Source: Planotetraspora mira (lineage in GTDB: Bacteria; Actinomycetota; Actinomycetes; Streptosporangiales; Streptosporangiaceae). From it: a DNA stretch of 64,000 nt. The DNA is taken from contig NZ_BOOO01000002.1 in NCBI RefSeq assembly GCF_016863275.1, positions 186,001 to 250,000 on the forward strand. The letters are read 5' to 3'. Shown piece after piece: positions 1,370 to 44,850 of the stretch. The notes beneath the pieces were generated by a model. The model worked only from the letters and a program-made list of their open reading frames with translations. It had not been told where the DNA came from and did not search any database. How positions within the stretch are numbered: the stretch's first letter is position 1; every line of letters begins with the position of its first letter. The translations under genes were made by a program, and so were the position numbers.

Positions 1370-2109
1370 GCTGCGACCCCCTCGCGAAGCTCGTGGCCGG
1401 TGACCGAGAGGAAGACCTCGTCGAGCGTGCCCGCGTCGTGGGCGGCCTTGAGCTCGGCCGGTGTGCCCGACGCCACGATCCGACCCTGGTCGATGATGAG
1501 GATCCGATCGCACAGGGCGTCGGCCTCCTCCAGGTAGTGCGTCGTCAGGAAGACCGTCATCCCGGCCTCCTCGCGCAACCGCCGGACGTGGCCCCACAGG
1601 TTCGTACGGCTCTGCGGATCGAGCCCGGTGGTCGGCTCGTCGAGGAAGAGCAACTCGGGCCGGTGAAGCAGTCCCATGGCGATGTCCACCCGGCGCTTCT
1701 GACCGCCCGAGAGCGATCCGGCGAGCCGCTTGTCCACGCCCGTCAGGTCGAGTTCGGCCAGGAGCCGGGTCACCCGGTCACGGGCGTCGGCCCGGCTCAG
1801 GCCGTACAGGCGGGCCTGGAGCACGAGTTCCTCTCCCACCTCGGAGAACGGGCCGACGGTGCCGCCCTGGGCGACGTAGCCGATCCGCCGCCGGACGCCC
1901 GCGGGGTCGGCGAACAGGTCGTGGCCCGCCACGGTGGCGGTGCCCGACGTGGGGCGCAGCAGTGTGGTGAGCATGCGAAGCGTCGTGGTCTTGCCGGCGC
2001 CGTTGGGGCCGACGAAACCGACGATCTCCCCCTTGGAGACGTCGATGTCGACGCCCTGGACCGCTTCGACGGAATCGAAGGATCTGGTGAGCCCTCTGAC
2101 ATGAATCAT
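1366..2109 (-). CDS. Daunorubicin-resistance type ABC transporter ATP-binding protein (DrrA-like)
   Basis: 247 residues with a complete ATPase set: Walker A GPNGAGKTTTLRML near residue 33, Q-loop region, signature LSGGQKRRVDIAMGLL, Walker B LLFLDEPTTGLDP, and switch histidine in VFLTTHYLEEAD. The C-terminal tail with ASGTPAELKA and the segment LDEVFLSVTGHEL is typical of the DrrA subfamily. It forms an exporter with the overlapping permease. The ATG at 2109 lies 65 bp from the divergent TetR gene, so the pair is probably repressed by that TetR protein. Confidence 0.93.
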   Translation of the reverse strand: MIHVRGLTRSFDSVEAVQGVDIDVSKGEIVGFVGPNGAGKTTTLRMLTTLLRPTSGTATVAGHDLFADPAGVRRRIGYVAQGGTVGPFSEVGEELVLQARLYGLSRADARDRVTRLLAELDLTGVDKRLAGSLSGGQKRRVDIAMGLLHRPELLFLDEPTTGLDPQSRTNLWGHVRRLREEAGMTVFLTTHYLEEADALCDRILIIDQGRIVASGTPAELKAAHDAGTLDEVFLSVTGHELREGVAA

Positions 2110-2119
2110 GTTTCTTAGA

Positions 2120-2141
2120 GTAACGCCAATTTTGGTGTCAC
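2120..2141. promoter_or_regulatory. Candidate TetR operator between exporter and regulator
   Basis: An imperfect 22-bp palindrome (GTAACGCCAA facing TTGGTGTCAC, 8 of 12 positions symmetric per arm) lies in the 65-bp divergent gap, which is unusually AT-rich for this genome. Position and symmetry fit a TetR-family operator controlling both the exporter and tetR-like gene. No footprint or orthologue alignment was available. Confidence 0.4.
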
Positions 2142-2174
2142 TTAAAAATTGGATGGCATACTAGAATCGGTCGC

Positions 2175-2852
2175 ATGGAAGAGGGACTGCGGGAGCGGAA
2201 GAAGCGGGAGACCCGCCAGCGGATCGCCGACATCGCGATGGGCCTGTTCCTGCAACGCGGGTTCGACAACGTCACGGTCGCCGAGGTGGCCAGGGCCGCC
2301 GACGTGTCCGTGAACACCGTCTTCAACTACTTCCAGACGAAGGAGGACCTGTTCCTCGACCGCAGTGACGAGGTCGAGAGCCTGCCGAGACGGATCATCG
2401 AGGAGCGACGCCTCGGAGAGTCGGCGGTCCAGGCCGTGCGACGCGACTTCTTCGACGCCCTCGACACCGGCGACTGGCGATACGGGATCCACGAGGGCAG
2501 CGACCTGTTCGCGCGGCGGGTCCGGGAGAGCCAGTCCCTGGTCGCCCGCCTCACCGTCCTGGACTACAACCGGGAGGAGCAGTTCGCCCGGGCGCTCGCC
2601 GACGCGGTGGACGCCGACCCGGACGACCTGACCCCGTGGCTGGTGGCGGCCCAGATCAATTCCGTCCTCCGTACGCTGACCCGGCGTTTCACGATCCGGC
2701 GGATGGCCGGCGAGGACATGGACCGGGTCGTGGAGGGCATCCGGCTGGACGCCACACTGGCCTTCGACCAACTGGAGTTCGGCGTGGGCGACTACGCCCT
2801 GCGACAGGCCGATCCCGGCACGCCGGTCGCCGGGGACCGGGTCCAGACCTGA
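2175..2852 (+). CDS. TetR-family transcriptional regulator
   Basis: 225 residues. The N-terminal helix-turn-helix is clear (ETRQRIADIAMGLFLQRGFD, then VTVAEVARAADVSVNTVFNYF, residues about 11-55), followed by an all-helical ligand domain without recognisable signature. It is divergent from the DrrAB-type exporter with a 65-bp shared gap, the standard arrangement for a repressor of a drug exporter. The ATG at 2175 follows directly after the candidate operator. Confidence 0.9.
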   Translation: MEEGLRERKKRETRQRIADIAMGLFLQRGFDNVTVAEVARAADVSVNTVFNYFQTKEDLFLDRSDEVESLPRRIIEERRLGESAVQAVRRDFFDALDTGDWRYGIHEGSDLFARRVRESQSLVARLTVLDYNREEQFARALADAVDADPDDLTPWLVAAQINSVLRTLTRRFTIRRMAGEDMDRVVEGIRLDATLAFDQLEFGVGDYALRQADPGTPVAGDRVQT

Positions 2853-2928
2853 GCCGTACCCCACGGCCGCGAGCACGGGACAGGACGTAGAAATCAGGAC
2901 ACGGGAATCGGGGACCCACGCGATCGCC

Positions 2929-3411
2929 GTGCCGGGCTCGGCGCCCGGTATACAGGTCCACGTGAAGTTGGACGAGCTGGATCGCACCATCATCCGGGCC
3001 CTGGTCGAGGATGCCCGTTCTACATATGCCGAAATAGGCGCTCAAGTTGGGTTGTCCGCTCCGGCGGTCAAGCGGCGGGTCGACCGGCTCGTCGCCACCG
3101 GCGCGATCACGGGATTCAGCGCGAGGATCGAGCCGTCGGCCCTCGGCTGGACGACAGAGGCCTACGTCGAGTTGTTCTGCCGGGGGAAGACCTCTCCCGC
3201 CGAGATCGGGGCCGCCGTCGCCGTGCATCCGGAGGTCATCTCGGCCTGCACGGTGACCGGCGAGGCCGACGCCCTTCTGCACATCCGCGCGACCGATGTG
3301 CGGGACGTGGAACGCATCATCGAGCGCCTGGCCGCCGAACCGTTCGTCGTGCGGACCAAGAGCGCCATCGTGCTTTCCCGGCTGGTTAACGGATCACCGC
3401 AAACAGGCTGA
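2929..3411 (+). CDS. Lrp/AsnC-family transcriptional regulator
   Basis: 160 residues from a GTG at 2929, or about 149 if the GTG at 2962 (which begins VKLDELDRTIIRALVEDARS) is the true start; neither has a strong ribosome-binding site. The N-terminal winged helix (YAEIGAQVGLSAPAVKRRVDRL) is followed by a RAM ligand domain (residues about 75-155). It sits directly upstream of ddaH-rocD on the same strand. Regulators of this subgroup beside these two genes are recurrent in actinobacteria, so the likely role is amino-acid responsive control of arginine/ornithine breakdown. Confidence 0.9.
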   Translation: MPGSAPGIQVHVKLDELDRTIIRALVEDARSTYAEIGAQVGLSAPAVKRRVDRLVATGAITGFSARIEPSALGWTTEAYVELFCRGKTSPAEIGAAVAVHPEVISACTVTGEADALLHIRATDVRDVERIIERLAAEPFVVRTKSAIVLSRLVNGSPQTG

Positions 3412-3420
3412 AGGACGCAA

Positions 3421-3455
3421 CCAATCCACGCCAAGGCGCAACGCGCACTGATTGG
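3421..3455. promoter_or_regulatory. Candidate Lrp operator upstream of ddaH
   Basis: CCAATC at 3421-3426 and GATTGG at 3450-3455 are perfect inverted half-sites 29 bp apart (start to start), in the 107-bp gap between the Lrp-type gene and ddaH. The position suits a site for the adjacent regulator. The evidence is symmetry and position only. Confidence 0.3.
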
Positions 3456-3518
3456 CCTGGTCTTTCGGCGTTCTTACGCTAAGGGGACCGTTGACCGGTT
3501 TTCCGCATGGAGTCCTGA

Positions 3519-4355
3519 ATGACCACACCTTTGGCCGTGACGACGCGTAGTGAACGAGCCGGTACGGCACGGCACTACCTGATGTGCCGACCCGAGTTCT
3601 TCGCCGTCTCGTACGCCATCAACCCGTGGATGGACCCGCTGGCCGGGGCCGACACCGCGACCGCCGTACGGCAGTGGGAGGGCCTCCGAGAGGCCTACGA
3701 GAGCCTGGGGCACACGGTCAGCCTGATCGACCCGATCCCGGGCCTGCCCGACATGGTGTTCGCCGCCAACGGGGCCCTGGTCGTCGACGGACGCGTCTAC
3801 GGCGCCAGGTTCACCCACCCGGAGCGGGCGGCGGAGGGTCCCGCCTACCTGCGGTGGTTCGCGGACCGCGGCTACGAGTCGATGGAAGCGTCGTTCACCA
3901 ACGAGGGTGAGGGCGACTACCTGACGCTCGACGAGATGATCCTGGCCGGGACCGGCTTCCGCACCGACGTGGCCGCGCACATGGAGGCCCAGGAGTTCCT
4001 CGGCCGCCCGGTGGTCACGCTCCGGCTGGTCGACCCGCGGTTCTACCACCTCGACACGGCGCTGTTCCCGCTCGACGGACACAACGTGGCCTACTACCCC
4101 GAGGCGTTCTCCTCTGGCAGCCAGAGGGTGCTCCAGCGGCTGTTCCCCGACGCCGTCATCGCCACGGCCGCCGACGCGGAGGTCCTCGGTCTCAACGCGG
4201 TCAGCGACGGACGGCACATCGTCGTGAACGCCGAGGCCAAGGAGCTGTCGCTGGAACTCGAGAACCGGGGCTACGAGGTCGTCCCCGTCGATCTGAGCGA
4301 GCTGCGCAAGGCCGGCGGCGGCCCGAAGTGCTGCACCCTGGAGATCCGCCGATGA
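3519..4355 (+). CDS. ddaH: Dimethylarginine dimethylaminohydrolase family protein (amidinotransferase fold)
   Basis: 278 residues. DDAH hydrolyses N-omega-methylated arginines to citrulline and methylamines; related amidinotransferases and arginine deiminases share the fold. Visible family marks are the N-terminal MCRPEFFAVSYAINPWMD, the FAANGALVVDG segment, a catalytic-type histidine near residue 233 (SDGRHIVVN) and the terminal cysteine pair 271/272 (GGGPKCCTLEIRR), one of which is the expected nucleophile. GGAG lies 7 bp before the ATG. The stop overlaps the rocD start as ATGA, so the two are co-translated; this pairing suggests the citrulline/ornithine branch of arginine catabolism. True substrate preference is not readable. 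Confidence 0.9.
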   Translation: MTTPLAVTTRSERAGTARHYLMCRPEFFAVSYAINPWMDPLAGADTATAVRQWEGLREAYESLGHTVSLIDPIPGLPDMVFAANGALVVDGRVYGARFTHPERAAEGPAYLRWFADRGYESMEASFTNEGEGDYLTLDEMILAGTGFRTDVAAHMEAQEFLGRPVVTLRLVDPRFYHLDTALFPLDGHNVAYYPEAFSSGSQRVLQRLFPDAVIATAADAEVLGLNAVSDGRHIVVNAEAKELSLELENRGYEVVPVDLSELRKAGGGPKCCTLEIRR

Positions 4356-5605
4356 GCGCGCCGACGAACGTGCCCCTGAGCACCGAGGACCTCATCCGGC
4401 TCGGCGAGAGCCGCAGTGCGCACAACTACCACCCGCTGCCCGTCGTCATCCGGTCGGCGGAGGGCGCCTGGGTGACCGACGTGGAGGGGAAGCGCTATCT
4501 CGACTGCCTTGCCGGCTACTCGTCGCTGAACTTCGGCCACGGCAACCCGGCGATCATCGCCGCCGCCCGTGAGCAGCTCGACCGGCTGACGCTCACCAGC
4601 CGGGCCTTCCTGCACGACCAGTTCGCGACGTTCGTCTCGGGCCTCGCCGACCTGTGCGGCAAGGACATGGTCCTGCCCATGAACACCGGCGCCGAGGCCG
4701 TGGAGACCGCGGTCAAGGTCGCCCGCAAGTGGGGCTACGAGGTCAAGGGCGTACCCGCCGACCAGGCGAACATCATCGTCATGGAGGACAACTTCCACGG
4801 CCGTACGACGACGATCGTCGGCTTCTCCACCGACCCGGACGCGCGAGGCGGTTTCGGCCCCTTCACGCCCGGCTTCCGGATCGTGAAGTACGGCTCGGCC
4901 GAAGCGATCAGGGAGGCCGTCGACGAGAACACGGTGGCCGTCCTCATCGAGCCGATCCAGGGTGAGGCGGGCGTGCTCGTGCCGCCGGACGGCTACCTGA
5001 CGGCGGTCCGCGAGATCTGCTCGGAGAACGACGTCCTGTTCATCGCCGACGAGATCCAGTCGGGCCTCGGCCGCACAGGCGACACCTTCGCCTGTGACCA
5101 CGAAGGGGTCGTCCCGGACATGTACGTCCTGGGGAAGGCTCTGGGCGGCGGAGTCGTCCCCGTCTCGGCGGTCGCGGCGAACGCCGACATCCTGGGGGTG
5201 CTCAAGCCGGGTCAGCACGGCTCGACGTTCGGCGGCAACCCCCTGGCATGCGCGGTCGGCAACGCCGTCATCGCGCTGCTGAACACCGGCGAGTACCAGA
5301 CCAGGGCCCGCGATCTCGGTGCGTTCCTCCACACGCGGCTGCGTGCGCTGATCGCCCCGGATGCGGCCGGACGCACGCCCGTGGTGGCCGTGCGCGGTCG
5401 TGGGCTGTGGGCGGGTGTCGACATCGACCCCTCTCTCGCCACCGGCCGCGAGGTCAGCGAGGCGCTCATGCGCCGGGGCGTGCTCGCCAAGGACACCCAT
5501 GGCTCCACGATCCGGCTCGCTCCGCCCATCGTCGTCACGGAAGAGGACCTCGGCTGGGCCGTCGATCAGCTCGCCGCTGTACTGTCCGAGTTCGCGAGTC
5601 GCTAG
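4352..5605 (+). CDS. rocD: Ornithine--oxo-acid transaminase
   Basis: 417 residues. It is a class III PLP aminotransferase converting ornithine and 2-oxoglutarate into glutamate semialdehyde and glutamate. Marks include MNTGAEAVETAVKVARKWGY (cofactor phosphate loop), FHGRTTTIVGFSTD, FIADEIQSGLGRTG (the D that contacts the PLP ring nitrogen) and the Schiff-base lysine about residue 262 in VLGKALGGGVVPVSA. Length is normal. The ATG at 4352 overlaps the ddaH stop by 4 bp; a frame continues 8 codons upstream but coupling favours 4352. Confidence 0.95.
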   Translation: MSAPTNVPLSTEDLIRLGESRSAHNYHPLPVVIRSAEGAWVTDVEGKRYLDCLAGYSSLNFGHGNPAIIAAAREQLDRLTLTSRAFLHDQFATFVSGLADLCGKDMVLPMNTGAEAVETAVKVARKWGYEVKGVPADQANIIVMEDNFHGRTTTIVGFSTDPDARGGFGPFTPGFRIVKYGSAEAIREAVDENTVAVLIEPIQGEAGVLVPPDGYLTAVREICSENDVLFIADEIQSGLGRTGDTFACDHEGVVPDMYVLGKALGGGVVPVSAVAANADILGVLKPGQHGSTFGGNPLACAVGNAVIALLNTGEYQTRARDLGAFLHTRLRALIAPDAAGRTPVVAVRGRGLWAGVDIDPSLATGREVSEALMRRGVLAKDTHGSTIRLAPPIVVTEEDLGWAVDQLAAVLSEFASR

Positions 5606-11237: not shown

Positions 11238-12818
11238 TCACGGCGCCAGCCGTACCCGGACTGTCTCCCCGAAGTCGGGACGCGCCGCATACCAGCGGAC
11301 GACGGCCGAACGGCCGTCGAGGTCGAGAGCGGCCAGCGCGTTGGGGAACCACGGGCCATCGGTGATCTTCCAGCGGAAGGAGCGGCGGGGCAGCCGCGCC
11401 AGACGCGCCAGGATCGCGCCCGCGACACCCGCGACGCCGAACGAGGCGACCACGTTGGCGAACCGCAGCGTACGGCTCAGCGGGTTGCGGATCGGCGAGC
11501 ACACCGCCTGGTAGATGCGGGCCGCGTCCAGGTCGGCGGACGCGGGTCCCGCCGCCGCCAGATACGAGTAGTGCACGTCACCGGAGAGCAGCACGATCGT
11601 GGCGGGCGCCCGCCCGCGCCGGCCCGCGGCGACGTCGACGAGCAGGCGGCCGAGGTCGTCGAAGGACCTGCGGAACGCGCCCCAGTGCTCGAGGTCGAGC
11701 CCTTGCCGGACCTTCTCCCCCCAGACGGCCGCGCGGCGGCCCCACACCCCGCCGGCGACGGCCTCGCTCCAGCTCTCCACGTCGAAGATGCCGCTCGGCA
11801 GGAACACCGGCACCGAGGATCCGATGAGCAGGTGGTCCACGCCGCCCGTGGCCAGATCGGTGAACCAGGACCATTCCTCGTCGTCGATCATCCTGCGGCG
11901 CCCGGGTTCGAGGCTCCTCGCGCACCGCGTGTCCAGCATGATCAGGCGCGTGCCGCCGATGTCGCGCGCGTAGCTCCACCGCGTCGAGGGGGGATCCTCG
12001 TCGGCCCGCTTCGCGAACGCGTCGAGGATCACCGCGCCATCGGCGTCGGCCGCCCGGATCGCCGCGAGCGTGGGATCGGCCTTGCGCTCGGACGGCGAGA
12101 GGTTCCCGAGATGCTGGTAGATCCAGTACGCGCCGAGCGCCGACACCACCCGGGACGGCCACCACTGCACCGCGGCCATCTGGCGCCGCCACACGTCGGA
12201 GGTGTTCCAGTCGTCGCGCACGTCGTGGTCATCGAAGATCATCGCTGTGGGCACGGTGGACAACACCCAGCGGACCACCGGTTCGGTCCAGGCCTGCCGG
12301 TACAGCTCGGCGTACTCCTCGAAGTCGACGATCTCGTCCGGCCCGTCCCGCCGTCGGGCCCGGATGAAGTCGATCATCTCCGGCGAGGGCTCGTCGGCGT
12401 AGACCTGGTCGCCGAGGAACAGCAGCAGGCTCGGCGGGTCCTCCCCCGCCATCAGGCGTAAGCCGTACCCCCTGAGCACGTCGGGGCCGTGGACGCTCTC
12501 GTGCGCGTCGTCGTGCGGGACGCTCGTACGGCAGGAGCCGAAGACGACCGTGCCCAGCTCCGCGAGAGGGCGTACCCGGCTCGGCGGGAAACCCTCGACC
12601 GGCCACACGGGCCGTCCGTCCAACTCGACGGTGTACTCGCCCGCACCCTCGGCGTCGACGATCGCGTAGTGATGGCCGTGCACGGTGAAGGTGCGCTCCG
12701 TGCTGCGTCCGCCGCCCAGGCCGACGGTGACCTCGCACGGCTCGCTCGTCTCCACCCAGACGGAGGCGCTCGTATCGTCGACGTGGCGCAACATCGGCCC
12801 CACCAGCAAGTCGGGCAC
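11238..12818 (-). CDS. PhoD-like alkaline phosphatase family protein (cytoplasmic)
   Basis: 526 residues. PhoD-type metallophosphatases are phosphodiesterases/monoesterases. Metal-site motifs are present: GDQVYADEPS, FDDHDVRDDWN and LSGDVHYSYL. There is no signal peptide or Tat motif, unlike classical PhoD, so it is probably cytoplasmic. I chose the GTG at 12818 because GAGGAGG lies 5 bp upstream and the protein then begins VPDLLVGPMLRHVDDTSASV; the frame is open 20 codons further, but that extension is Pro-rich and translates a small G-rich repeat. It lies upstream of nothing obviously phosphate-related; a MarR gene precedes it by 75 bp on the same strand. Confidence 0.88.
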   Translation of the reverse strand: MPDLLVGPMLRHVDDTSASVWVETSEPCEVTVGLGGGRSTERTFTVHGHHYAIVDAEGAGEYTVELDGRPVWPVEGFPPSRVRPLAELGTVVFGSCRTSVPHDDAHESVHGPDVLRGYGLRLMAGEDPPSLLLFLGDQVYADEPSPEMIDFIRARRRDGPDEIVDFEEYAELYRQAWTEPVVRWVLSTVPTAMIFDDHDVRDDWNTSDVWRRQMAAVQWWPSRVVSALGAYWIYQHLGNLSPSERKADPTLAAIRAADADGAVILDAFAKRADEDPPSTRWSYARDIGGTRLIMLDTRCARSLEPGRRRMIDDEEWSWFTDLATGGVDHLLIGSSVPVFLPSGIFDVESWSEAVAGGVWGRRAAVWGEKVRQGLDLEHWGAFRRSFDDLGRLLVDVAAGRRGRAPATIVLLSGDVHYSYLAAAGPASADLDAARIYQAVCSPIRNPLSRTLRFANVVASFGVAGVAGAILARLARLPRRSFRWKITDGPWFPNALAALDLDGRSAVVRWYAARPDFGETVRVRLAP

Positions 12819-12893
12819 GTAGCCTCCTCGGAGATCGGGGATCGGGGGTCTCGGGATCGGGGGTAAGACCGGGGACACCAGGACCCGCCGCGG

Positions 12894-13391
12894 TCAGCCT
12901 TCCAATGACCGCACGAGGACCTCCAGTTCACGCATGAGCTCCCCGGTCCTGGCCGTGCCGTACATCGCGAGGATCGCCCGGTGGTGCTCGGCGATCCCCG
13001 CTTCGAGACGGCCCAGGAGGTCACTGCCCCGATCCGCCAGGAATACCGCCACCTTCCGGCGATCGGCGGGATCGTGTCCCCGGTAGACGACGGCACGCTC
13101 GACGAGCCGGTCGACCGCCTTGGTCAGCGTGGGATGCGGCATCAGCGCGGCCTCGGCGAGGTCGCCCATCGAATGCCCGCGCCCGTCCGCGAGCGCCTGG
13201 AGGATGCGCCACTGCTCGACGGACACGTCCTCGGAGGCGAGTGCGGCGGCCAGCGCCCGGTTGACGCTCCGCTCGGCCCGGCTCAGCAGGTAGGCGAGTG
13301 AGGAACCGAGCCCGGTGACCGCCGGAGGGGGCTCCGTACGCACAGGGGGAAGGGGGGTCTCACGCCCCCCGTCGGGTCCCGCCGTCACCAC
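12894..13391 (-). CDS. MarR-family transcriptional regulator
   Basis: 165 residues. It has a winged helix: MGDLAEAALMPHPTLTKAVD (recognition region) followed by the wing PADRRKVAVFL, with the dimerisation helices at both ends. The start is placed at GTG 13391, where GGGAG lies 6 bp upstream; an open extension of 10 codons exists. It is divergent from the AmiC-like gene (41 bp apart), and 75 bp upstream of the PhoD-like gene in the same direction. The target could be either side. Confidence 0.88.
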   Translation of the reverse strand: MVTAGPDGGRETPLPPVRTEPPPAVTGLGSSLAYLLSRAERSVNRALAAALASEDVSVEQWRILQALADGRGHSMGDLAEAALMPHPTLTKAVDRLVERAVVYRGHDPADRRKVAVFLADRGSDLLGRLEAGIAEHHRAILAMYGTARTGELMRELEVLVRSLEG

Positions 13392-19660: not shown

Positions 19661-20371
19661 ATGAACGCGAGCCGTACCGCCAGAGAGCGGGTCAGAGCGG
19701 AGTTGATCCGGGAGATCACGGATATCGCGCGCCGCCACCTGGCGACGGACGGAGCCGGAGGCCTGTCGCTCCGCGCCGTGGCGAGGGACATGGGGATGGT
19801 CTCGTCGGCGATCTATCGGTACTTCCCGAGCCGCGACGACCTGCTGACGGCACTGATCATCGATGGATACAACGCCATCGGCGAGTCCGTGGAGATCGCC
19901 GACGCGGGATGCGCGCGGGACGACTTCACCGGGCGCTGGCTGGCCGTCTGCCATGCCGTACGGACCTGGGCCCTGGACCACCCCCACGAGTACGCCCTGC
20001 TGTACGGCTCGCCGGTACCGGGCTACCAGGCGCCCGAGGACACGATCGGACCGGCCGCCCGGGACGTCGTGGTCTACGGGCGGATCATCTCGGACGCACA
20101 GGCGGCGGGCCGGCTGACTCCGCCCGACATGTGTCCGGCGCCCCCCGAGGTGTTGTCGTCCGACGCTGAAGCGGTGCGGCAACTCATGCCCGGCGTCTCG
20201 GACGACGTGGTGGCGCGCGGGATCGTCGCCTGGACCGGACTGTTCGGGATGGTGAACTTCGAGCTGTTCGGCCAGTTCAACAATGTGATCACCCACCGGC
20301 GAGAGCTCTTCGAGCACAACATGCTCAGCCTGGCCTCCCTGATCGGCCTACCCCCCACCCCCCGGGCGTGA
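19661..20371 (+). CDS. TetR-family transcriptional regulator (WHG-type C-terminus)
   Basis: 236 residues. The N-terminal helix-turn-helix (RREITDIARRHL-like start, GLSLRAVARDMGMVSSAIYRYF) is followed by a ligand domain with HPHEYALLYGSPVPGY, seen in TetR proteins with the WHG C-terminal domain. It is divergent from the YrdB-epimerase unit across two near-identical palindromes. Its TGA stop (20369-20371) lies inside the first GTGATC of the 53-bp repeat array. Confidence 0.92.
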   Translation: MNASRTARERVRAELIREITDIARRHLATDGAGGLSLRAVARDMGMVSSAIYRYFPSRDDLLTALIIDGYNAIGESVEIADAGCARDDFTGRWLAVCHAVRTWALDHPHEYALLYGSPVPGYQAPEDTIGPAARDVVVYGRIISDAQAAGRLTPPDMCPAPPEVLSSDAEAVRQLMPGVSDDVVARGIVAWTGLFGMVNFELFGQFNNVITHRRELFEHNMLSLASLIGLPPTPRA

Positions 20372-20910
20372 TCATGCACAAGTTCGAGATCATGCCCCCT
20401 GACCAGCCCGAACACCGGCCGTGATCATGCACAGGTTCGTGAGGGTGGTGCCTGACCAGCGCACACACCGTTCGTGATCATGCACACTTTCGACGAAACA
20501 TGGTCCCACCTGCGCATACGCAAGTCGTGATCATGCACGGATTCGGCGGCACACCGCCTCGCCTGCCTAAACGCGAGCCGTGATCATGCAGTGAAGGCGG
20601 CACCCCAATACGGGGTGCCGCCTCCTGCCGCTCCATCACCACATCTCACGCGCCTGGTGTGCGCCCGACTCCGCGAATCACCCTTGCTGAATGATCACGG
20701 ACGCCGAACACGCTGGTCAGCGCGCATCTCCACGAATTCGCGCATGATCACGCCAGATATCAACACTGGTCAGCGCACACATCTCCGAAAGCATGCATGA
20801 TCACGAACAGTGTGTGCGCTGGTCAGGCCCCACTCTCACGAACCTGTGCATGATCACGGCCGGTGTTCGGGCTGGTCAAGGGCCATGATCCCGAACCTGT
20901 GCATGATCAC
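20368..20910. repeat. Two-armed array of ten 53-bp units, opposed orientation
   Basis: Plus-strand units start with GTGATCATGCA at 20368, 20421, 20474, 20527 and 20580, exactly 53 bp apart. Minus-strand units end with (G)ATCAC at 20698, 20751, 20804, 20857 and 20910, again exactly 53 bp apart. Conserved positions are 1-12 (GTGATCATGCAC), 16-19 (TTCG) and 32-40 (CTGACCAGC); the rest varies. The outermost unit pairs are near-identical inverted copies (49/53 and 50/53), the inner pairs are much more diverged. It fills the gap between TetR and leuA, which are convergent. I recognise no named element. Confidence 0.95.
20596..20622. terminator. Central hairpin of the 53-bp array
   Basis: GGCGGCACCCC (20596-20606), loop AATAC, then GGGGTGCCGCC (20612-20622): an 11-bp perfect stem at the inner end of the left arm. 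It is shaped like an intrinsic terminator without the U-tract and could stop transcription arriving from either flank. Confidence 0.6.
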
Positions 20911-20923
20911 GCGGGAGGGGGGG

Positions 20924-22726
<1,803 letters not shown>

Positions 22727-26487: not shown

Positions 26488-28204
26488 CATCGAACGGTCG
26501 CGTTACGCGGCCCTGTACGGCCCGACCACGGGCGATCGGGTGAGGCTGGCCGACACCGACCTGTTCATCGAGGTCACAGAAGATCTGTCGATGGGCCCCT
26601 CGGGGGCGGGCGACGAGGTGGTCTTCGGCGGCGGCAAGGTCATCCGCGAGTCGATGGGCCAGGCCCGCACGACCCGGGCGGACGGCGCGGCCGACCTCGT
26701 GATCACCGGGGCGGTGATCCTCGACCACTGGGGCGTCATCAAGGCCGACATCGGCGTGCGCGACGGGCGGATCGTCGCCATCGGCAAGGCCGGAAATCCC
26801 GACACGATGGACGGCGTGCACCCCGGCCTGGTCATCGGGCCGTCGACCGAGATCCTCGCGGGCAACGGGAAGATCATCACGGCTGGGGCCGTGGACTCCC
26901 ACGTCCATCTCATCGCCCCGCAGATCCTCGACGAGGCCCTCGCCTCCGGCATCACCACGATCATCGGTGGCGGCACCGGTCCGGCCGAGGGCACCAAGGC
27001 GACCACGGTGACGGGGACGTGGTACCTCGCCCGGATGCTGGAGTCCCTGGACTCGTATCCGATCAACGTGGCGCTGCTCGGCAAGGGCAACACGGTCAGC
27101 ACCGAGGGCCTGCTGGAACAACTGCGCGCCGGCGCCTCCGGGTTCAAGCTGCACGAGGACTGGGGCACCACTCCGGCGGCGATCGACGCCTGCCTGAGCG
27201 TCTGCGACGCCACCGGCGTGCAGGCGGCCATCCACACGGACACCCTGAACGAGGCGGGGTTCGTCGAGTCGACGCTGAAGGCCATCGCCGGCCGGGCCGT
27301 CCACGCCTACCACACCGAGGGCGCGGGAGGCGGGCACGCCCCGGACATCATCAAGGTCGCCTCCCACGCCAACGTGCTGCCCTCCTCCACCAACCCCACG
27401 CGGCCGCACACGGTCAACACCCACCACGAGCATCTCGACATGCTCATGGTCTGCCACCACCTGAACCCGTCGATCCCCGAGGACCTGGCCTTCGCCGAGT
27501 CGCGCATCCGGCCCACCACGATGGCGGCCGAGGACGTGCTCCACGACATCGGCGCGATCTCCATGATCGGCTCGGACTCGCAGGCGATGGGCCGGGTCGG
27601 CGAGACGATCATCCGTACCTGGCAGACCGCGCACGTCATGAAGGCCCGGCGTGGCACGCTGGGCGGCGAACCGGGCAATCCGGCGGACAATCTCCGCGCT
27701 CGCCGCTACATCGCGAAATATACGATCAATCCGGCTATCGCCCATGGGCTGGACGCCGAGGTCGGCTCGGTCGAGGTCGGCAAGCTGGCGGATCTCGTGC
27801 TCTGGAGCCCCGCCTTCTTCGGGGTCAAGCCCGATCTGGTCGTCAAGGGCGGCGTGATCGCCTACGCCCAGATGGGCGACGCGAACGCCTCCATCCCGAC
27901 CCCGCAGCCGGTCCTCCCCCGGCCGATGTTCGGGGCGGCCCCGGCCACGGCGGCTGCGACGTCCCTGCACTTCGTGGCGCCACTGGCCATCGAGGACGGT
28001 CTGGCCGACCGCCTGGCCGTACGACGTCGGCTGGTGCCGGTGGCCGACGTGCGGAGCCGGCACAAGGACTCCATGCCCCTCAACGGCGCCCTGCCGGCGA
28101 TCGAGGTCGATCCCGACACGTTCACCGTCCGCATCGACGGAGAGCTGATCGAGCCCGCCCCCGCGGAACGGCTGCCGATGGCGCAGCTCTACTTCCTCTT
28201 CTGA
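26480..28204 (+). CDS. ureC: Urease alpha (catalytic) subunit
   Basis: 574 residues from a GTG at 26480. Nickel-site residues are all visible: [11 protein letters not shown] (His pair), GFKLHEDWG with the carbamylated lysine about 223, [29 protein letters not shown], and the flap region [20 protein letters not shown] with the catalytic His around 326. [20 protein letters not shown] and the terminal MAQLYFLF are also conserved. It looks fully functional. Confidence 0.98.
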
Positions 28205-43970: not shown

Positions 43971-44783
43971 ATGTACGGGCAGGACGTGCTTTCCGGAGAC
44001 TGGCGGCGCCCCAAGCGGGGGCAGATCCCCAAGATTCCGGCCGAACCGGACCTCGTGGTCGAGGACGCGGAAGGCCGCTTCTGCGGCGCCGTGGTGGCCT
44101 GCGACAAGGAGGCCGTCACCCTGGAGGACCGGTTCGGGCGACGGCGGATCTTCCCCCTGGTGCCCGCCGGATTCCTCCTGGACGGCAAGCCCGTGACGCT
44201 GGTACGGCCGGCCGCCGCGCCGCAGGGCGCCAAGCGGAGCGCCTCGGGATCCGTCGCGGTGGAGGGCCTGCGCGCCCGGGTGGCGAGGGAGAGCCGAATC
44301 TACGTCGAGGGCGTCCACGACGCCTCCCTCGTGGAGAAGATCTGGGGCCACGACCTGCGCGTGGAAGGCGTGGTGGTCGAGTTCCTCGAAGGCGTCGACG
44401 ATCTGCCGGCCATCGTGGCGGAGTTCGCCCCCGAGCCGGGCAGGCGCCTCGGGGTGCTGGTCGACCATCTCGTCCCGGGCTCCAAGGAGAGCAGGATCGC
44501 GGCCCAGGTGACCGGGGACCACGTGTTGATCGTGGGACACCCGTACGTGGACATCTGGCAGGCGGTCAAGCCGTCGGCGCTCGGCATCGCCGGGTGGCCG
44601 GACGTCCCTCGCGGGCTCCCGTGGAAGGAGGGCGTGATCGCCGCTCTCGGCTGGCGGATGGACCCCCAGGAGGCGTGGCGGCACATCCTCGGCCGGGTCG
44701 AGACGTTCGCCGACCTCGAGCCCGAACTCCTCGGACGCGTCGAAGAACTGATCGACTTCGTCACCGCCCAACCCCCCGCGTGA
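43971..44783 (+). CDS. DUF3097 family protein
   Basis: 270 residues from ATG 43971: MYGQDVLSGDWRRPKRGQIP, RIYVEGVHDASLVEKIWGHD, LGVLVDHLVPGSKESRIAAQ, VGHPYVDIWQAVKPSALGI. The central part resembles a Toprim-like fold (EGVHDA, LVDHLVPGSKE). It is conserved beside hemW and hrcA in actinobacteria; function unknown. Its TGA stop is formed by the first GTGATC of a 53-bp repeat unit. Confidence 0.88.
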   Translation: MYGQDVLSGDWRRPKRGQIPKIPAEPDLVVEDAEGRFCGAVVACDKEAVTLEDRFGRRRIFPLVPAGFLLDGKPVTLVRPAAAPQGAKRSASGSVAVEGLRARVARESRIYVEGVHDASLVEKIWGHDLRVEGVVVEFLEGVDDLPAIVAEFAPEPGRRLGVLVDHLVPGSKESRIAAQVTGDHVLIVGHPYVDIWQAVKPSALGIAGWPDVPRGLPWKEGVIAALGWRMDPQEAWRHILGRVETFADLEPELLGRVEELIDFVTAQPPA

Positions 44784-44850
44784 TCATGCACACCTTCGGC
44801 GACAGGCCGCCCGACCAGCACAACCATCAACCGTGATCATGCACGAAATC
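44780..44850. repeat. Second copy of the 53-bp repeat family
   Basis: GTGATCATGCAC at 44780 and again at 44833, exactly 53 bp apart, with the internal TTCG and CGACCAGC of the family at the expected offsets (16 and 33). The second unit is cut after about 17 bp by the hemW stop (44852-44854). As in the 20.4-kb array, the first unit starts on the stop codon of the plus-strand gene. Confidence 0.92.

Follow-up and report, generated by a model that had tools for sequence, protein, structure and literature searches.

The window, that is, the whole stretch of 64,000 nucleotides analysed, contains a repeat array (20350-20923) between two convergent genes, one for a TetR-family regulator (19661..20371, + strand) and leuA, encoding 2-isopropylmalate synthase (20924..22669, - strand). 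All ten cores listed in an earlier note on this DNA were found in place, and the step was exactly 53 bp each time. Five units per arm had been described there; five cores per arm were indeed present, but each arm was shown to consist of four full 53-bp units followed by a bare core (eight units and two end cores). In the left arm (+ strand), units 1 to 4 lie at 20368..20420, 20421..20473, 20474..20526 and 20527..20579, and the bare terminal core at 20580..20591. In the right arm (- strand), the bare terminal core lies at 20687..20698, followed by units 4, 3, 2 and 1 at 20699..20751, 20752..20804, 20805..20857 and 20858..20910, unit 1 being outermost. The TTCG block was found at offset 15 (given as 16 in the earlier note) in all eight full units, and was missing from both bare cores. 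The third block reads TGACCAG in six of the eight full units; the remaining two have CCACCTG or TCGCCTG, and the bare cores have no third block.

The two arms face inward, with a 95-bp centre (20592..20686) between them, and their outer two and a half units form a 138-nt inverted repeat of 91%. The TetR-family gene ends within the left arm, its TGA stop codon being part of the first core, and the right arm begins 13 bp from the leuA stop. By the composition of the arm-flanking positions, a C-rich, G-poor outer tract precedes the left arm (20350..20367, + strand), overlapping the end of the TetR-family gene, and the tract outside the right arm (20911..20923, - strand), which adjoins the leuA stop, is C-rich as well (G-rich on the + strand). 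The centre contains a GC-rich, terminator-like hairpin (20595-20623), for which the surrounding 161 nt gave a folding z of -4.41. Judged by eye, the locus retains a hairpin in congeners and in sp. A-T 1434 as well. The hairpin of the window is not followed by a T run; by the criterion of a GC-rich hairpin and then a T run, no intrinsic terminator was found at the array, and the count of T-tailed terminators in 20200-21100 of the window was 0.

Core matches with up to two mismatches numbered 18 in the window, whereas 100 shuffles gave 4.42 on average and at most 11; these counts and the genome-wide reversed-pattern control given below exclude a chance origin of the array. A second array of one unit and a core (44780..44844, + strand) was also found between convergent genes, and two to three units were present at the same site in P. 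silvatica (G022) and in the genomes G125 and G077. An Rfam search over the window at gathering score gave one match, to the 5_ureB small RNA family (26640-26934, - strand, 69.7 bits), away from the array, which itself matched no Rfam family. A plasmid or phage origin was rejected, as a BLASTn search with 20355-20930 gave no match in either of the two collections. Nineteen stretches of viral contigs fitted a loose two-core pattern, and the ten inspected by eye seem to be unrelated repeats or coding sequence.

Number, geometry and position of the arrays

The genome (G000, a Planotetraspora relative; 9,025,981 bases) was found to contain 623 exact GTGATCATGCAC cores (316 and 307 by strand), compared to 0 for the reversed control. 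The unit is thus not restricted to this junction and 44.78 kb, a restriction that the earlier note would have taken to speak against a functional element. Stretches of 800 kb from G000 (about 9%), 560 kb from G022, about 732 kb from sp. A-T 1434 (G059) and 400 kb from Microbispora sp. H11081 (G186) were read, in addition to smaller ones from G125, G077 and G104. A 54-column profile detected 129 units in the 800 kb of G000 and 0 in the reversed control, and same-strand steps below 400 bp were 53 bp in 90 of 91 cases. With looser cores, the step was 53 bp in 232 of 254 cases in the stretches from genus g1 and in 86 of 137 in G059, where 28 more were 52 bp; the corresponding count of 56 out of 76 for Microbispora comes from stretches of which some overlap and some were chosen for their cores.

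The consensus of 100 exact-core sites in G000 reads CGTGATCATGCAC-agg-TTCG, with YGACCWGC at offset 32 and C-rich positions ahead of the next core. Each unit has a nearly frozen core, GTGATCATGCA with a lineage tag (here CAGGTTCG), and the second block YGACCWGC at fixed distances, the bases between being free. Units are oriented away from the adjoining gene, and inward arms meet at a short centre (2-145 bp in two-armed arrays) that is sometimes a palindrome or hairpin. Head-out (-+) neighbours were found in 0 of 104 cases for the profile units of G000 and in 8 of 953 with looser cores. No clear helical period was detected in the centre lengths, 9.5 having the smallest P among seven periods tried. 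Single-armed arrays made up 11 of the 24 array-bearing junctions in G000, 10 of 17 in G022, 25 of 50 in G059 and 2 of 5 in G186.

A random position with respect to genes, which the earlier note had also counted against function, was not what was observed. Of 37 arm ends in G000, 26 adjoin the 3′ end of a gene and 11 the 5′ end, and 9 of 11 single arms were at 3′ gene ends. Six of the 26 lie at -4, with the TGA of the core as the stop codon, and 17 lie at 11-28 bp. In G000, arrays occupied 9 of the 123 convergent junctions, 13 of the 448 tandem ones and 2 of the 122 divergent ones, and the convergent excess was significant in G000, G022, G059 and G186 (P = 0.024, 0.0006, 0.0015, and 0.031, two of these genomes being congeners and not independent); the junctions were obtained with a purpose-made codon-model gene caller, a crude tool that may have assigned some neighbours wrongly.

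Outside the arms, positions -15..-6 showed a C content of about 0.6 and a G content of 0.06-0.17 in four genomes (102 arms at 3′ and 38 at 5′ gene ends). Since the tract is present at 3′ and 5′ gene ends alike, it belongs to the element. Between the stop codon and the first core, the C content was 0.60 in G000, 0.55 in G022 and 0.57 in G059, compared to 0.38-0.39 after other stops; two short stretches in G186 (50 nt only) were not C-rich (0.16). A template G-quadruplex was predicted outside 16 of 140 arms (60-nt stretches) compared to 16 of 1125 control ends (48 nt), which is an enrichment, but in too few arms to be what characterizes the element.

Carriers, lineage tags and orthologous sites

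In the family, with 150 genomes searched including G000, the counts of exact cores were 698, 652, 231, and 165 in the four congeners and 552 in G059. Lower numbers were found in G051 (37), G050 (31), and G090 (28), and the remaining 141 genomes had 0-6. A core-pair scan gave, among the matches listed, Planotetraspora silvatica, thailandica, kaengkrachanensis and phitsanulokensis, sp. A-T 1434 and two Microbispora. Single two-core matches in Lacrimispora (L097) and a Eubacterium MAG (L144), also among the matches listed, are probably due to chance. A wider pattern searched in 250 genomes gave 163-760 fits in genus g1, 43 and 137 in g34, 12, 94, and 121 in g50, and 6-151 in five genomes of g65, the rest of g65 having 0. 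G059, in which the tag ends in TTCC, showed only 5 fits to this pattern compared to its 552 exact cores. The core-to-block-2 pattern of the 53-bp form was found 28-94 times in g1, 34 times in g59, 16 and 40 times in g34, 7-37 times in part of g65 and 0-9 times elsewhere, with none above background in g50.

Each lineage was found to carry a genome-wide version of its own: TTCG, TTCC, CAGAAG and, in Microbispora, GTGATCTTGTAGTTTGTCG. TTCC in G059 occupies the position of TTCG in G000. In G077, all four loci read showed GTGATCATGCAGAAGTTCG, and the whole genome gave 165 exact GTGATCATGCAC cores compared to 760 fits to the wider pattern. In Microbispora, GTGATCTTGTAGTTTGTCG is often outermost with other cores inside, and two abutting cores formed a 24-bp palindrome in 9 of the 13 centres measured. 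Short palindromes built from two cores were present in genera g50 and g48, and this two-core palindrome is possibly the simplest form of the element. Two head-to-head cores were seen as short palindromes in L235, L238 and L239 (G090, G114, and G048), one in G048 being 39 bp long. Extra degenerate GTGATCA repeats of about 20-30 bp were seen outside the 53-bp arms in G077 (C23, about 12525-13023 and 68989-69701). In two Microbispora species (L220 of G193, 1877-4653; L221 of G119, 1559-4335), inward arms about 2.8 kb apart, with identical spacing in both, enclose guanine-deaminase-like and glycerate-kinase-like ORFs (named by eye).

In a class-wide sample of 394 genomes, the core pair was found at any step of 38-68 bp in 13. 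Clear arrays outside the family were present in G278 (106 pairs), G337 (76), G276 (23), G484 (10), and G396 (8), from three other actinomycete families; G000 was also among the 13, Microbispora G119 had 30 pairs, and six genomes had single pairs. Each of the five genomes outside the family retains GTGATCATGCA with its own tag, the spacers being C-rich in most, and one genus is split, with arrays in G337 and none in G293. Their steps vary from about 22 to 68 bp, and searches limited to 53 ± 1, in which the spacing was preset by the pattern, recovered only part of these arrays. The constant core is thus wider than the 53-bp lattice, which is a trait of the Planotetraspora/Microbispora clade. The suggestion of the earlier note that 53 bp reflects helical phase, about five turns, therefore fits this clade but does not apply generally, and five-turn phasing is not a general need.

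Conservation in close relatives, which the earlier note had asked for, was observed: 15 array sites were common to G000 and G022 and none was private among 414 orthologous adjacent gene pairs. Compared to G059, 3 sites were shared, 2 were found only in G000 and 6 only in G059 (175 gene pairs, P = 0.0009); the TetR-leuA array, seen apart from this count, is present in G059 with TTCC units. Compared to G186, 1 site was shared, between CoxS-like and guanine-deaminase-like genes (named by eye), and 4 and 3 were private (205 gene pairs), which was not significant (P = 0.09). By eye, G051 contains the TetR-leuA gene pair without an array. A region syntenic with G125 and G077 contains four array sites, with arrays in both genomes except for one "empty" site in G125, which was found to be a decayed core. 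The number of units differs between species at orthologous sites, and at one of the 15 sites common to G000 and G022, three of the four cores at G022:C2 346739-346989 are opposite in orientation to the five at G000:C2 7563-7809, as if this arm had been inverted in place. Between genera, arrays were gained and lost. At filled and empty sites the arrays reach close to both gene ends, and inspection by eye of 11 filled/empty and 2 filled/filled comparisons between genera showed no clear target duplication.

Constraint, copying and the level of action

Conservation of the sites was shown by a unit-by-unit comparison of G000 and G022, for which 62 unit pairs in 20 arm pairs were obtained from 66 G000 units (pairs below 0.6 similarity being dropped). 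In the 59 pairs of 53 bp, with 351 substitutions in total, core positions 0-9 differed at 5 of 590 sites and position 10 at 10 of 59, and the two spacers differed at 123 of 767 and 127 of 708 sites (16-18%). The spacer difference is about 2.4 times that of four-fold degenerate sites (0.070 of 26,677). Only 2 of the 62 pairs differed in length. Control intergenic regions (69) differed at 0.044 of sites and showed 0.119 short gaps per substitution, a ratio at which about 42 length differences would be expected (P = 7e-16); scaled by sites, about 16 would be expected (P about 1e-5). This supports the selection on length that the earlier note had proposed. In whole-region alignments with G125 and G077, which are not unit by unit and in which unit numbers differ, the indel deficit is weak or absent (short gaps per substitution, array compared to control: 0.134 and 0.218 for G125, 0.232 and 0.240 for G077). 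Differences in the spacers were near Poisson (mean 4.27 per unit, variance 5.54) with a ts/tv of 187/86 in 64 unit pairs, a pattern that resembles ordinary point mutation, so that block replacement is not the main process. Alleles were shared within an array somewhat more than expected (0.357 compared to 0.286), and local copying inside arrays could help to maintain the length without selection.

The spacers of different loci are unrelated, the share of pairs above 0.7 identity being 0.002, and 30 of 722 arm-to-arm comparisons within loci exceeded 0.65 identity. The comparison covered nine loci of sp. A-T 1434 whose centre measures 29-30 bp. Eight of the nine have an inner right unit, for which all 28 pairs showed similarities of 0.62-0.93; the values were 0.35-0.85 for the inner left unit and 0.28-0.90 for the centre. 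The closest pair showed 0.82 for the left unit, 0.93 for the right unit and 0.90 for the centre. Inner units of 20 other two-armed loci were 0.39 alike on average and 0.65 at most, with 0.5% at or above 0.62. This comparison shows that whole two-armed modules were copied to new places in sp. A-T 1434, in agreement with the mobile-like origin considered in the earlier note.

The arrays may be a non-autonomous, selfish mobile element of the MITE or REPIN type, with the units as sites of a trans-acting transposase, the arms as its ends and the junctions as places where insertion does least harm, a reading that we consider rather unlikely. Besides the alike modules at the eight sp. A-T 1434 loci, it is consistent with the symmetry of inward-facing arms, the gains and losses between genera, the patchy presence over genera and families and the short palindromic two-core forms in other genera. 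In dead copies, however, all positions would be expected to decay at the same rate, whereas G000 and G022 have no private arrays and the cores are intact between strongly changed spacers. A single arm is present at about half of the array-bearing junctions, and the pairs viewed gave no clear target duplication. The transposase search covered PF01797 (Y1_Tnp) alone, at E ≤ 0.001: nine of the 14 array-bearing genomes had no such Y1/RAYT match (G000, G022, G104, G125, G059, G186, G215, G050, and G090), and matches were found in the other five (G077, G193, G119, G084, and G034) and in five of eight array-poor ones. On this result, a RAYT-driven REPIN was rejected.

An action at the level of the transcript is improbable. 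The C-rich spacers and repeated motifs after the stop codon would in this case load a Rho-like terminator factor or an RNA-binding protein, the opposite arm serving opposing transcripts. The location directly after stop codons and the C-rich, G-poor tract that separates the stop codon from the first core are consistent with this, as are the hairpin in the centre of the window's array, the mild structure of the arms (z -1.55 compared to shuffles) and the centres at two loci, each in G000 and G022, that fold with z of -2.6 to -3.6. The remaining centres long enough to fold had z between -1.5 and +1.2, however, and single units are unstructured (z -0.30). Mutual information inside the unit (125 G000 and 115 G059 units) detected no covariation as a base pair, and strong 52-63 signals in G059 were attributed to the ends of arrays, which have no following core. 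In the G077 units seen, the possible stem GCACAGGT/ACCTGCGC is disrupted. The RNA with regularly spaced hairpins that the earlier note had offered as an alternative is thus not supported. Nor does the fixed 53-nt step have a clear use in RNA, the stop-to-core stretch of G186 is not C-rich, and the C-rich tract is present at 5′ gene ends too, where the units are about equally conserved: core identities at 5′ and 3′ gene ends were 0.974 and 0.975 in G000, 0.975 and 0.987 in G022, and 0.968 and 0.945 in G059, the second block in G022 being less conserved at 5′ ends (0.745 compared to 0.853). The absence of covariation, the unstructured units and the equal conservation at both gene ends favour double-stranded DNA as the site of action, without being proof of it.

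Long arm-to-arm pairing as RNA or cruciform was rejected; strong spacer matches are sporadic and not tied to the mirror register (11 of 207 at offset 0, 15 of 293 at ±1). A promoter array, for which one site with -35/-10-like geometry was found (0.1 in shuffles), was rejected as well, since it would leave the rigid first spacer unaccounted for. Block 2 TTGACC (unit offsets 31-36) and GATCAT of the next core were seen at an 18-bp promoter-like spacing at 20850-20879 (- strand) of the window. Neutral minisatellites, with a period kept by tandem duplication and conversion and no function, would agree with the variable unit number at orthologous sites and the local copying within arrays, but are very improbable given near-invariant cores beside fast spacers, two length differences in 62 unit pairs and genome-wide tag changes at separate loci.

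Interpretation and comparison with known systems

The reading that we favour, at slightly less than an even chance with its boundary role included, is that the array is a multi-site platform of double-stranded DNA for a putative co-evolving, sequence-specific DNA-binding protein. A nearly frozen core with its tag, units of rigid length with free spacers, arms that face inward and rewriting throughout a lineage fit such a DNA-protein platform more closely than they fit a dead mobile element or an RNA. One protein assembly would read both core and tag and, in the Planotetraspora/Microbispora clade, would stack on one helix face at five-turn intervals (53 bp, about 5 × 10.5), so that length would be selected and spacer sequence would not. 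The tag would have changed jointly at the loci of a lineage because the putative protein changed its specificity. It is position by itself that points to a boundary function: two arms after stop codons, preferably between convergent genes, may form a two-sided boundary between neighbouring transcription units, which could block read-through or colliding transcription or set the edge of a supercoil domain. The element would first have been dispersed by copying, as a mobile-like module, and would now be kept in place by selection. An old mobile-like repeat, now retained as a phased platform that marks transcription-unit boundaries, is thus the best reading.

More doubtfully, the arrays may represent a previously undescribed class of actinomycete elements, with GTGATCATGCA plus a genome-specific tag, inward arms at transcription-unit ends and a co-evolving factor, that is, a lineage-rewritten boundary or insulator code with a five-turn lattice in Planotetraspora/Microbispora. 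No description of arrays of this kind was found among the matches listed in the open literature, and we know of few dedicated boundary elements between bacterial transcription units. A large, dispersed set of sites with near-fixed core and period, conserved in place and rewritten by lineage, makes a co-evolving reader directly testable, and the arrays allow selection on DNA length to be told apart from selection on sequence. If the element is only mobile, it is a large family of tagged repeats without RAYT in several of the richest genomes.

The sopC site of plasmid F is a centromere array of tandem 43-bp units with a short core read by a DNA-binding protein. The arrays described here likewise have long tandem units with a short core, but are dispersed on the chromosome at gene ends and two-armed. 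Tn7-like and Mu-like elements have several directly repeated transposase sites at each end, the two ends being inverted. Directly repeated sites in each of two inverted arms are present here too, but the centres are too short for a transposase gene, no clear target duplication was seen and the sites are conserved in place. Copies related along their whole length, as in MITEs, were seen for one sp. A-T 1434 subfamily, the spacers being otherwise unrelated between loci. A predicted ArgR site of S. coelicolor contains GTGATCATGCAC, according to the entry cited (PMC5839063), but the fit is limited to one half of the ArgR box, and the lineage tags would not be explained by ArgR, so ArgR was rejected as the reader.

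REP, BIME and REPIN families, in the cited passages (PMC3116915, PMC3733652), share a constant tag, GTAG or CGTC, and are associated with RAYT transposases. As far as described there, the arrays resemble them in their many dispersed intergenic copies, inverted conserved ends around variable sequence, tandem clusters and constant tag (GTGATCATGCA here). They differ in the fixed 53-bp tandem step in this clade and in the unit, which has no hairpin or palindrome (z -0.30, no covariation) and no GTAG or CGTC in its consensus, and a cognate RAYT is missing from G000 and eight other of the 14 array-bearing genomes. MIRU/VNTR loci of mycobacteria are described in the cited passages (PMC4213456, PMC2734929) as tandem repeats in intergenic DNA, with units of 40-100 bp, among them one size of 53 bp, and a unit number that varies between strains. 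By description, not by sequence, the arrays resemble these as actinobacterial intergenic tandem units of 40-100 bp, with a copy number that here varies between species, and differ in their two-armed symmetry, which those passages do not describe for MIRU. REPINs and MIRUs are the closest known kinds.
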